A DNA stretch of 64,000 nt from Pseudobdellovibrionaceae bacterium (GTDB taxonomy: Bacteria > Bdellovibrionota > Bdellovibrionia > Bdellovibrionales > Bdellovibrionaceae), in assembly GCA_021731025.1 (NCBI GenBank), contig JAKFYD010000041.1, positions 1 through 64,000 of the forward strand, read 5' to 3'. The position numbers and the translations under genes are program-made. The notes under the pieces were generated by a model, which had not been told where the DNA came from, searched no databases, and was given only the letters and a program-made list of their open reading frames with translations. Positions 22,413 to 25,909 of the stretch are shown here, in pieces; the first letter of the stretch is position 1, and every line of letters starts with the position of its first letter.

Positions 22413-22985
22413 CTAATCCAAATCGTCAATTTCCCAGAACAGGCGTTTGATTCTCTCTGCCAACTCAAGCTTTTCTTCTTTGGTCAGTGCAGGAAATCCA
22501 ATTTTCGCGCGACGAGCTTCCACGGCCGGAAAGACAGTGTGAAGATTGGCGCGAATGGATTCTTTTTGCCAAGTGTTCAATGGAATGTGAGTTCCCAAAA
22601 CAAAGGGCCAGCCGTAACCCCAACGGTACTCGCTAGGAATAAGCTGATTGGTATTTAGGGGTATAGCTAAGCGAGGTCCACTGTAAACAAGCGCTCCCAA
22701 AATTGGATTGGTTTTTCTCGAGACGCAGGAATAAAGTTCGGCGTCTGCTTTATTCAAAGCTCTCATTCCACCGACACCAGACCAATAAGCCACGTCATGA
22801 ATTTCACAGCAGATCAACCAAGGTGCGTGTTTTTTATTTCCATCTGAAAACCGACTACAACCATCAGTCGTGAAGGAATTAATTTCATTGGTGATCGGTT
22901 GCAGAACAACTTCTTTATCGTACTCTTTGGTCGCCCAAGCTTGAGCTGCACATAAGACCAATAACAGATTAAGCACGCACTTCAT
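22413..22985 (-). CDS. Exported phospholipase A2-like protein
   Basis: A 190-residue protein with a signal peptide (V-L-N-L-L-L-V-L-C-A-A-Q-A-W-A). The mature part shows a PLA2-type core: T-D-G-C (residues 40-43), then C-C-E-I-H-D-V-A-Y-W (C59, C60, H63, D64, Y67), then A-D-A-E-L-Y-S-C (C87). In secreted PLA2 enzymes the His-Asp pair is catalytic, the paired cysteines form disulfides, and a Gly-rich loop upstream binds calcium. The H-D-x-x-Y motif is intact, while the calcium loop is not obvious. Export plus this motif suggests a periplasmic or secreted lipid-hydrolysing protein. Assignment rests on the motif alone. Confidence 0.7.
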   Translation of the reverse strand: MKCVLNLLLVLCAAQAWATKEYDKEVVLQPITNEINSFTTDGCSRFSDGNKKHAPWLICCEIHDVAYWSGVGGMRALNKADAELYSCVSRKTNPILGALVYSGPRLAIPLNTNQLIPSEYRWGYGWPFVLGTHIPLNTWQKESIRANLHTVFPAVEARRAKIGFPALTKEEKLELAERIKRLFWEIDDLD

Positions 22986-23158
22986 AAAAGCTCCTCTTTG
23001 AGTTCAGAGGAAGCTTCAAAAGAAGGACCTACGCCAGTGCGCTTATTTTTCTATTCAGCAATTACAACTGTTTAAATATTTATCATGAGCTTATTTATGT
23101 CAGTTTACTTAACTGATGTCGTCGCATCACCGCCCCTACCATTATCTACTCTTTTCTT

Positions 23159-23200
23159 ACTCACAAAGATTGGTACCTATAGGTACCAATCTTTGTGAGT
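23159..23200. repeat. 40-nt palindrome, copy 2 (perfect stem)
   Basis: A perfect inverted repeat with 19-nt arms around a TATA loop. It shares its ends (CTCACAAA/TTTGTGAG), length and centre (TATAGGTAC) with the palindrome at 15114-15153, but the middle of the stem differs on both arms in a compensating way. It lies in an intergenic stretch about 175 nt from the PLA2-like gene start and about 155 nt upstream of the riboswitch promoter, not directly behind any gene. That suggests a dispersed element more than a dedicated terminator. Confidence 0.8.
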
Positions 23201-23352
23201 GAATAAAATGAATCTCCATAGGTGATTTTTAGTTCACTGCCACGGTGGCAGTAAACTTTCCTTTTTCGTCCAACTTGTTAACGTAATTTCGGGTGAGACG
23301 TCTCAGAATGATCCAACATATTGAATTCATTTGAGATTTTAGCATGACAAAC

Positions 23353-23381
23353 TTGAAAACACCCGTCACCCCGGTTATTCT
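23353..23381 (+). promoter_or_regulatory. Promoter of the c-di-GMP riboswitch RNA
   Basis: A -35 box TTGAAA (23353-23358) and a -10 box TATTCT (23376-23381) are separated by exactly 17 nt. This predicts a transcript start near 23388, about 45 nt upstream of the aptamer P1 stem. The match to the primary sigma-factor consensus is good and the position fits the structure downstream. Confidence 0.6.
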
Positions 23382-23387
23382 AGTATT

Positions 23388-23642
23388 AACAAAACCAAGG
23401 AGGTTCGTAGCGTAACTCAAAAGGTTTATCCTTCTTTGTCTCAAGGCTAACTTCGCGAAAGCGGAGGGCGCAAAACTAAAGGGACTTCGTTCGCAAGGAC
23501 ATGTCAGCCAGTTGCCAAAGGTGAGTCACCTGCGGAAGCAGAGCTATGGGAAGGAATAAAACTATTTTTTCATACATACTAGGTTTCATTCCCCTTAGCC
23601 TGTCAGGATTCAGGAAGATTAAGAACTGACAGGCTTCTTTAT
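23388..23642 (+). ncRNA. GEMM-I c-di-GMP riboswitch RNA, apparently stand-alone (merRNA-like)
   Basis: The aptamer spans about 23434-23520. Recognisable GEMM-I parts in order are a P1 strand CTTTG (23434-23438), AAGGCTAA, a 6-bp hairpin capped by a GAAA tetraloop (CTTCGC-GAAA-GCGGAG, 23451-23466), the conserved GGCGCAAAACT followed by GGGACT, then GTCAGCCAGTTGCC, and the closing CAAAG (23516-23520). AACT pairs with AGTT where the consensus has AGCC:GGTT, so pairing is kept by covariation. The residue aligned with G20 of the V. cholerae Vc2 aptamer, which contacts the ligand, appears to be G, as expected for c-di-GMP over cGAMP binding. A strong terminator follows at 23597-23635. No open frame lies inside the transcript, so it is either a free-standing RNA or a terminator switch for the gene at 23775. 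Confidence 0.85.
23597..23642 (+). terminator. Intrinsic terminator of the riboswitch RNA
   Basis: Perfect 10-bp stem AGCCTGTCAG (23597-23606) with CTGACAGGCT (23626-23635), a 19-nt loop, then TCTTTATTTTT. A textbook Rho-independent terminator, and the only strong stop before the gene at 23775. Confidence 0.88.
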
Positions 23643-23774
23643 TTTTGGGCCCTCGAAAAATAGCGTTAATTGTCCCTCGTCAATTTCATTTACAATTCAA
23701 ATTTATCTATTAGTCCCGTTGGAAAATATATATTACATAGACTGAAATAAATCGGACTCACTAAGGTGCGAACC

Positions 23775-24186
23775 ATGGCAAGGGCTCTGTTACTGCTTTT
23801 CAGTATTTTAATTTTTTGGGGAAGTAGTAACTGCCTAGCTGCCGAAAACTGCGAAGGTGTTTTTAAAAATTCAAGCTACATCAAACAAGTTATTTCGACC
23901 AAAGGTGCACGCCTTTTCATCAAAGAAAGTGAAAAAGCTACCGTCGAAAAAAAATGGTTAGGGCTTGTTCGTCGTCTCCCCCAAGAAGAACTATCCAAAT
24001 CTTGGAAAATATCAAAGTATTTGAGGTACATCATTAAATCCCTTCCCCTAAAGTTGTTTAGATTTAAGGACTGTTATTGGAGTCAGTAAATTCAAAAAGA
24101 AAAATGGGATTTACGAGAACGCGGTTTTGGGAATTGAAGACATTCGCATGGAAATACTCGAAGAGATTTACGCCAAGCTCATATGA
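23775..24186 (+). pseudogene. Exported protein of unknown function, probably frameshifted
   Basis: From the ATG at 23775 (AAGG 8 nt upstream) the frame gives a signal peptide (A-L-L-L-L-F-S-I-L-I-F-W-G) and ~100 residues, stopping at 24087-24089. The frame shifted by one base then continues as coding-like sequence (N-G-I-Y-E-N-A-V-L-G-I-E-D-I-R-M-E-I-L) to a stop at 24184-24186. The shift must lie near the A-rich stretch at 24085-24105. Without it the protein would be ~135 residues. No family was recognised. It follows the riboswitch terminator by ~135 nt and could be its regulated gene. Alternatively the short 104-residue form is the real product. Confidence 0.5.
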
Positions 24187-24205: not shown

Positions 24206-25909
24206 TTACTTCTGGGCAACTGCACTAGGGATCATCAAACGATGACCAATTAAAACTTTCGAAGGATTTTTGATTTTGTTCTTAGATTTTAAATCACTAA
24301 AATCGACATTGTACTTTTCAGCGATATAATGCAAATTCTCGCCACGTTTAACAACATGGTAACGGGATTTTGCGTTGCTGCGATGACCAGAATCGTAATT
24401 CTTATTTATTTTTAAATCATCTGTGGTTCGATCTTGAACTAATTCTGGCAGCTTAATTTTAATTCCTACTTTTAATGAGCGACCACGGCGAATGTTATTT
24501 ATCTTTTTCAATTGCTTTACGCTGGTGTTATAGCGTTGCGCGATTGAAAAAAGAGAATCACCCGATTGAACGATGTAGTACTTTGAAACTCCACCTTCAT
24601 CTTTAACTTCTTTCATTTCGGCGGTCTCTTTGACTTCTTTTGTGTCTTTAATATCTTTTTTCGCAGAGATTTCTTCTCGACTTACGGAAGCAATACGATG
24701 TCGGTTTTTATTGCGATCAGGACGTTCCTTCAAAGGAGTGCGATCGGGAACCATCAAGCGCATACCAATGCGAAGTTTTTTTCCTTTCGACAAATCATTC
24801 AAGTCCCGCAGATAAGCCACGGTTGTGCGGTACTTTCGCGCCACCAAATAAAGATTGTCACCGCGACGGATTTTGTAGGTTTGAGTTTCACCAGCGTCAG
24901 CAACGTACTCGACTGTTTGCACGGCGCTTTCTGCGGCTGCTTGCAAACTGATTTCTTTCATCCCCACAGGAATGCGAAGATCTAAGATTGATCCGTCTTT
25001 AACTGGGGCCACTTCCCCTTTGTATTTGGGATTCAAGGCTTTAAAATCTTCGTAGTTGTAATTCATTTTATCAGCCATCACGCGAAGATTGATTGGGCTC
25101 TTCACACTGATGCTATCAAACTCGATGGCTGGTAAATAATCTAAATCTGCGAAGCCATACTTTTCAGGGCTTTGCGCGATCAATTTAGCAGCGATGAATT
25201 TAGGAACGTAGTTGATTGTTTCTCGAGGCAAGCGACGTTTTTTAGCGAGCTCCCAAAAATCTCTGGTGTAGTTTTTCATCACTTCTTTTTTCACGCGGTT
25301 CTCACCGACGTTGTAAGAAGCCATCGCCAAATACCATGAACCGAAAACACTGTAGAGACCTTTAAAATATTCTGCTGCAGCTTGAGTCGCCAAAACAGGA
25401 TCGCGTCGTTCATCGACAAACTTATTAATTTCTAAACCGTAGCGTTTTCCTGTTCCACGAATAAACTGCCAGTAACCCACCGCTGAGGCGTGACTCGTTG
25501 CACGCGCTGTAAAACCTGATTCGATAAGTGCGATGTAAAAAAGATCTTCAGGAAGTCCGTTGTCACGCAAAACTTTTTTCATCAATTTTTCATAACGCGT
25601 AGAGCGAGAAAGATAACGCTCCATATGATTACGGCCTCTCCCCTGAAAATAATTGATCCATTTTTCAACTAAGGGATTCACTTCCGTAGGAATAGAATTA
25701 AATTCTTCGGCCTGAACCTTTGGTCCTTCGGGTTCATCCAAATGAAATTTTGGAAGATCCTTCGGGCGTTCCTCTGCAGGAACGTTATCAGTTTCATTGG
25801 TCACCGTCGTCGTCGACGTTGGCGAAGCGGAATTGGTCGTAGGGCGATTAAAATGCGCACAGCCAAAGCTAGCCATGGCAAATCCTGCCAACACAAGTCG
25901 AAGAGTCAT
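24206..25909 (-). CDS. MltD-like lytic transglycosylase lipoprotein with LysM repeats
   Basis: A 567-residue lipoprotein (lipobox S-F-G-C, Cys17) with a central SLT lytic-transglycosylase domain: catalytic Glu in A-L-I-E-S-G-F near residue 135, A-V-G-Y-W-Q-F, and M-A-S-Y-N-V-G-E-N. Three LysM peptidoglycan-binding domains follow, near residues 345-390, 440-485 and 517-562, separated by Lys/Glu-rich linkers. It cleaves glycan strands to 1,6-anhydromuropeptides from the periplasmic face of a membrane. Length and order fit the MltD family, with one extra LysM compared with E. coli. It is followed on the same strand by an Slt70-like gene upstream (25969-28095), making a pair of wall-cutting enzymes. 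Confidence 0.93.
   Translation of the reverse strand: MTLRLVLAGFAMASFGCAHFNRPTTNSASPTSTTTVTNETDNVPAEERPKDLPKFHLDEPEGPKVQAEEFNSIPTEVNPLVEKWINYFQGRGRNHMERYLSRSTRYEKLMKKVLRDNGLPEDLFYIALIESGFTARATSHASAVGYWQFIRGTGKRYGLEINKFVDERRDPVLATQAAAEYFKGLYSVFGSWYLAMASYNVGENRVKKEVMKNYTRDFWELAKKRRLPRETINYVPKFIAAKLIAQSPEKYGFADLDYLPAIEFDSISVKSPINLRVMADKMNYNYEDFKALNPKYKGEVAPVKDGSILDLRIPVGMKEISLQAAAESAVQTVEYVADAGETQTYKIRRGDNLYLVARKYRTTVAYLRDLNDLSKGKKLRIGMRLMVPDRTPLKERPDRNKNRHRIASVSREEISAKKDIKDTKEVKETAEMKEVKDEGGVSKYYIVQSGDSLFSIAQRYNTSVKQLKKINNIRRGRSLKVGIKIKLPELVQDRTTDDLKINKNYDSGHRSNAKSRYHVVKRGENLHYIAEKYNVDFSDLKSKNKIKNPSKVLIGHRLMIPSAVAQK

Follow-up and report, generated by a model that had tools for sequence, protein, structure and literature searches.

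The window, that is, the whole stretch of 64,000 nt that was analysed, contains an intergenic, single-copy and terminator-ended RNA locus whose promoter was assigned by comparison. Its features, together with the shared neighbouring gene, are the following.

23353-23381, forward strand: candidate promoter TTGAAA-N17-TATTCT, proposed from its pattern and its likeness to HD100
23388-23646, forward strand: predicted merRNA-like transcript of about 255 nt; the start is inferred and the end is that of the U-tract
23397-23403, forward strand: AAGGAGG, a Shine-Dalgarno-like element not followed by a start codon, conserved throughout the family and widely in the order
23425-23434, forward strand: 5' strand of helix PB, UUUAUCCUUC (permutation test, p=0.0006)
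23435-23519, forward strand: c-di-GMP-I (GEMM-I) aptamer RF01051, 62.7 bits, sole copy in the genome
23520-23606, forward strand: 3' domain homologous to the 3' flank of merRNA in relatives (nhmmer, E=1.2e-10)
23546-23629, forward strand: frame at the position of the micro-ORF sORF2, MGRNKTIFSYILGFIPLSLSGFRKIKN, a 27-aa ATG frame over the 3' half
23550-23560, forward strand: 3' strand of helix PB (GAAGGA, a bulged A, UAAA), at the site of the sORF2 ribosome site or start codon of relatives
23582-23598, forward strand: 3' motif GGTTTCATTCCCCTTAG, highly conserved in the family, where relatives read (R/W)-F-H-S-P-stop
23597-23646, forward strand: intrinsic terminator with a 10-bp stem, a 19-nt loop and a U-rich tail
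24206-25909, reverse strand: mltD-like lytic transglycosylase (SLT and LysM; Pfam, ORF cluster C0), convergent and shared with relatives

On the upstream side, a 190-aa ORF on the reverse strand (22413-22985) has a CCEIHD motif recalling phospholipase A2 active sites and no Pfam match. Between this ORF and the RNA sits an inverted repeat (23152-23207) of 28+28 nt without spacer, 89% complementary, with the core CTCACAAAGATTGGTACCTA/TAGGTACCAATCTTTGTGAG and no T-run behind it.

The aptamer

The initial annotation had recognised a GEMM-I aptamer from its parts, and the GAAA-capped hairpin, GGCGCAAAACT and CAGCCAGTTGCC were all found by direct reading. The Rfam covariance model that it proposed as a check matches the window over its full length (cmscan, model positions 1-87, E=7e-10), at a score well over the RF01051 gathering score of 35 bits and also above that of the HD100 aptamer (60.8 bits). 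The compensatory pairing AACT:AGTT is real as well: relatives with AAAACU mostly carry AGUUGCC (8 loci), and those with AAAGCU usually pair it with AGCUGCC or AGCUACC (48 loci). A genome-wide scan returned no second RF01051 match in the window genome. On the other hand, the fold of 23388-23645 is only mildly stable (z=-1.74), and the case for this RNA is made by the covariance model and by comparison rather than by folding energy.

The ligand-contact residues G20, A47 and C92 (Vc2 numbering) are all present in the window aptamer, as read by eye from the cmscan alignment. A G20A change leads to cGAMP binding (PMC6274999), and cGAMP is also made by B. bacteriovorus (PMC9140294). Since the window keeps a G at position 20, c-di-GMP is the expected ligand, which the window RNA probably binds.

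Orthology with merRNA

The merRNA of HD100 has been mapped to positions 1,073,741-1,074,185 of the minus strand, with an expression that roughly matches the sum of all protein-coding reads and is biased 5000-fold towards the attack phase (PMC3627812). The sole RF01051 match in G003, the genome inferred to be HD100, spans 1,073,868-1,073,951 of the minus strand and falls within this published interval. Moreover, a profile of the 3' flanks of 58 relatives, with both the aptamer and the window excluded, recovered window 23520-23606 in an nhmmer search, and the corresponding search with the 5' flank gave a weak match (E=0.017). Taken together, the 3'-flank homology and the HD100 overlap indicate that the window holds a merRNA orthologue, which is more than a bare aptamer. 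The earlier suggestion that this is the same kind of RNA as merRNA is thus borne out by the HD100 overlap, by the agreeing flanks and by a mltD neighbourhood that is common among relatives.

The same annotation had described a promoter with 17-nt spacing and a perfect 10-bp terminator. Both promoter boxes exist (TTGAAA at 23353-23358 and TATTCT at 23376-23381, 17 nt apart), but the pattern alone is no commoner than chance, with 2 sites vs 3.0 expected. Its support is a near-identical counterpart in HD100, TTGAAA-N18-TATCCT, whose end is about 16 nt short of the published RNA start. From the candidate promoter of the window to the aptamer there are 82 nt, compared with about 280 nt in HD100, so that the leader would be short. 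As for the terminator, its arms (23597-23606 and 23626-23635) are indeed 100% complementary over 10 bp, but the loop is 19 nt long and the U-tract UCUUUAUUUUU is imperfect.

According to a 2013 study, merRNA occurs only within the Bdellovibrio lineage and has no conserved ORF downstream (PMC3627812). In our scans, RF01051 matched 59 of 66 genomes of the family, 89 of 141 of the order and 137 of 369 of the phylum, the last two being counts under strict filters that may miss weak matches, and every positive genome had exactly one match. A comparison of roughly 90 related genomes shows that the RNA is old and that at no point was it bound to a single gene. For the family genomes with no match, DNA and 3'-motif searches gave nothing convincing; G056 has one motif with a single mismatch. 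The GGDEF content was considered as a cause of aptamer presence or absence and rejected, as nearly all genomes have GGDEF, the window genome having six.

Outside the order, there are stand-alone aptamers with a different 3' domain, often followed on the same strand by a frame that looks queE-like by eye. Single-copy GEMM-I aptamers of families f22 and f26 (L115-L130 and others) are flanked by GAAGAGG...CCUCUUC and ACCCC...GGGGGGU, and aptamers of this type may be cis-regulatory.

Gene neighbourhood

Clustering of the neighbouring ORFs revealed a recurrent order, in which an mrp/NUBPL-type ATPase gene (PF10609) lies upstream of the RNA and convergent LysM/SLT lytic transglycosylase genes lie downstream. 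The window keeps the downstream side, with the mltD-like gene followed by genes for an SLT-TPR protein, a BatD protein and a TPR protein, so the comparison of synteny with the merRNA locus, which had been suggested as a check, agrees on the mltD side. Of 84 loci, 58 have their nearest downstream ORF on the strand opposite to the RNA, a count from a mechanical ORF caller (at least 70 aa) that includes some spurious ORFs. In these 84 loci, no co-directional downstream gene family recurs across the order.

In the window itself, a co-directional ORF (23775-24089, forward strand) lies 130 nt downstream of the RNA and seems to be the truncated remnant of a protein of about 390 aa. The initial annotation had offered a switch for this ORF as an alternative, and an ordinary cis riboswitch acting through terminator control would need just such a co-directional ORF. 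We regard this possibility as very improbable. The ORF is confined to the window genome, its one weak partial match among 65 relatives being to part of a protein of about 390 aa in G040 (L155), and most relatives have a convergent gene next. By this comparison, ORF 23775 is a lineage-specific fragment and not a riboswitch target. Control of a downstream co-transcribed gene, as in the cis-regulatory type of riboswitch, does not apply to a locus with no conserved downstream protein gene. Given that no co-directional family recurs and that 23775 is a fragment, the RNA appears to be a stand-alone unit rather than the leader of a conserved gene. Altogether, sequence comparison shows the window RNA to be a single-copy merRNA orthologue, independent of any protein gene beside it.

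A helix closing the aptamer

The aptamer is closed by a helix absent from the Rfam model, CCUUC:GAAGG, for which we found covariation throughout the order. This helix, termed PB, typically reads CCUUCC:GGAAGG. The strand 5' of the aptamer was compared with the region 3' of it, and partners were swapped between genera: over 36 genera of the order, native pairs had a mean of -9.29 kcal/mol vs -8.20 kcal/mol for swapped ones (p=0.0006). Compensatory pairs include UACUUCC:GGAAGUA (G044) and UUACCUCC:GGGGGUA (G140). An outer helix predicted by the MFE fold of the window, AAGGAGG:CCCCUU, was rejected, covariation support being absent (p=0.37-0.40). The near-invariant AAGGAGG could serve as a ribosome standby site or as a competitor for the PB strand.

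Micro-ORFs on both sides of the aptamer in relatives

The 3' strand of PB coincides, for most of the listed genera, with the Shine-Dalgarno or start region of a micro-ORF, sORF2. In the family, the motif GGTTTCATTCCCCTTAG reads ...FHSP-stop in frame with an ATG, the length of sORF2 ranging from 7 to 24 aa; in HD100 it is MEGTNTYKDWFHSP (1,073,788-1,073,832, minus strand, converted coordinates). When the family is divided into 21 genus-length classes, the distance from the ATG to CATTCC is divisible by three in 18 of them (P=1.1e-6 if the classes are independent), and the control spacing from the aptamer to the ATG has no three-base periodicity. The middle of sORF2 is variable across relatives, and FHSP is kept at synonymous sites too, which implies that a constraint at the RNA level also acts there. 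A frame with an AGGAGG site behind PB occurs in three of five loci of family f5; outside this family and that of the window, most loci lack an AUG behind the PB strand. In the window, the distance from the ATG to CATTCC is 41 nt, where 42 would be needed to stay in frame, and a T6 run lies at 23565-23570. This frameshift may be either real or a homopolymer or assembly artefact. The earlier statement that there is no open frame inside the RNA is therefore correct as regards known proteins, but the 27-aa ATG frame at 23546-23629 occupies the position of the conserved micro-ORF of relatives.

The same 3' motif could be read otherwise, as the means by which a trans-acting sRNA pairs with mRNAs, either through it or through AAGGAGG. 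The transcript is stand-alone, and the complement of the 17-nt motif resembles a ribosome site plus start codon. Nevertheless, in 10 genomes this complement was found at 0-1 mismatch only at merRNA, matches with two mismatches were few and isolated, and frame-keeping sORF2 codons already explain the motif, all of which makes the sRNA reading quite unlikely. Trans action, which the initial annotation had proposed as one option beside a ligand sink, loses ground with respect to long pairing, and short seeds are unaffected by this result.

A second type of micro-ORF, sORF1, lies upstream of the aptamer in 51 of the 88 loci whose upstream sequence was long enough; it is a short frame with a Shine-Dalgarno site and ends in P[KEQR]-stop or DPx(x)-stop. 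The same end-motif was met in 0.2% of shuffled leaders and on none of the 88 antisense strands, although it was picked after viewing the data and the absolute figures therefore flatter the result. Often sORF1 ends in DPPP[K/E]-stop, with a Bdellovibrio form like MKNRIHDHHDEPPK and forms like MxxxPKDWRLDPPPK in other families. DPPP is a known ribosome-stalling motif. The HD100 copy, MRTHEHHDDELK, lies at 1,074,083-1,074,121 of the minus strand (converted coordinates), within the mapped RNA. Moreover, a proline ahead of the stop codon can stall termination, according to works cited in PMC7246954. The leader of one locus (L079, G140) has three tandem sORF1-like frames ending in PPPE, PPPE and PPPI. 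In the window, the frames at the sORF1 position lack a Shine-Dalgarno site or a proper start, and one of them ends in NDPTY-stop.

A search of 141 genomes for L-D-P-P-P-[KE]-stop returned 17 sites, compared with 3 for a reversed-pattern control. Twelve of these sites belong to RF01051 loci. The remaining five come from genomes in which RF01051 had no match; four of these five are downstream of mrp, three of them also adjoining mltD. The aptamer-less units at L167, L168, L169 and L170 (G097, G115, G127 and G136) comprise sORF1 with its Shine-Dalgarno site and a terminator. By their layout, the four mrp-linked loci are the merRNA locus minus its sensor.

Since conserved micro-ORFs flank the sensor in relatives, the label "non-coding" is probably doubtful for merRNA. 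Our literature search found no published ribosome profile or small-protein study for Bdellovibrio.

Discussion

The explanation that we favour, at a probability of roughly 0.55, is that the window RNA is a stand-alone merRNA orthologue that would bind c-di-GMP and that, in the family, would gate sORF2 through PB, with storage of the ligand being possible too. In the family, PB closes the aptamer and would at the same time cover the ribosome site of sORF2, the frame that reads ...FHSP-stop and ends at the terminator. Because PB overlies this site, ligand binding most likely changes sORF2 translation; as PB is directly joined to the aptamer stem, the simpler guess is that it closes when the ligand binds. 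If the RNA is very abundant, as may be the case, it could also hold c-di-GMP. The window copy has an intact aptamer, PB, 3' motif and terminator, but no sORF1, and its sORF2 is off by one base. Having degraded micro-ORFs, the window RNA would act solely as a c-di-GMP binder, unless the frameshift is a homopolymer artefact.

A more elaborate version, which we put forward tentatively, is that merRNA, rather than a non-coding sponge, would be a riboswitch-run micro-operon comprising a conserved leader micro-ORF, the aptamer and, in this family, a PB-sequestered sORF2 with a stop codon overlapping the terminator. Here, the level of translation, and perhaps the stalling of ribosomes, would depend on c-di-GMP, on an extremely abundant transcript of attack-phase cells that do not grow. 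A parallel is offered by proline-terminated arrest leader peptides such as TnaC, the resemblance being a short ORF, in merRNA of the DPPP[K/E]-stop or SP-stop kind, near a regulatory RNA structure. Unlike the TnaC type, the micro-ORFs described here have no downstream operon. A comparable relationship holds with cis-acting GEMM-I riboswitches, which have the same aptamer and whose ribosome-site-sequestering translational platform PB resembles; the difference is that merRNA has no ordinary-size gene downstream, the sole candidate target being a micro-ORF of 7-24 aa that ends at the terminator.

The published proposal is that merRNA is a c-di-GMP reservoir (PMC3627812). In its pure form, merRNA would store c-di-GMP in the attack phase and free it on entering the growth phase, the micro-ORFs being incidental. 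The expression level and attack-phase bias reported for HD100 speak for this proposal, and so does the window, where the aptamer is intact while both micro-ORFs are degenerate. Yet a reservoir needs neither a frame-keeping micro-ORF nor a ribosome-site helix, both of which relatives conserve, and four syntenic aptamer-less loci retain sORF1 and the terminator. We therefore hold the pure reservoir to be rather doubtful, although a reservoir role and micro-ORF gating may hold together.

The window RNA resembles HD100 merRNA in its single c-di-GMP-I aptamer, AAGGAGG, closing helix, GGTTTCATTCCCCTTAG and terminator, and in having no conserved protein gene downstream. It differs in its predicted length of about 255 nt, in lacking sORF1 and in its out-of-frame sORF2, whereas the HD100 RNA has 445 nt and a long 5' leader (234 nt) with sORF1; that length characterises the HD100 RNA and need not be a requirement for merRNA. 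The missing sORF1, the off-frame sORF2 and the lack of an aptamer match in G065, the only other genome of the window's genus, mean that the window copy could be decaying, the lineage having shed the leader (about 47 nt as predicted, from about 234 nt in HD100) and the micro-ORFs from a locus on its way out. ORF 23775, next to the RNA, is likewise only a fragment. However, G065 is merely 81% complete, the window aptamer outscores that of HD100, and PB, the 3' motif and the terminator are intact, so that we consider decay unlikely.

Although merRNA reads equal those of all protein-coding genes in attack-phase Bdellovibrio, its role has so far been a matter of speculation. Our analysis extends its range beyond the 2013 account, to a single-copy RNA across most of the order; elsewhere in the phylum, aptamers of this class also occur on their own. 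It also brings in two kinds of conserved micro-ORF beside the aptamer and the closing helix PB, none of which was in the initial annotation; control of the micro-ORFs in cis by the aptamer is possible. In addition, nature has separated the parts, as there are sORF1 loci without the aptamer and, in the window, an aptamer without sORF1. The kind of RNA is already known, and riboswitch-gated translation of micro-ORFs would represent a testable alternative to the reservoir idea. Through sORF1, sORF2 and PB, the question of whether merRNA is a c-di-GMP store or something else becomes directly testable.
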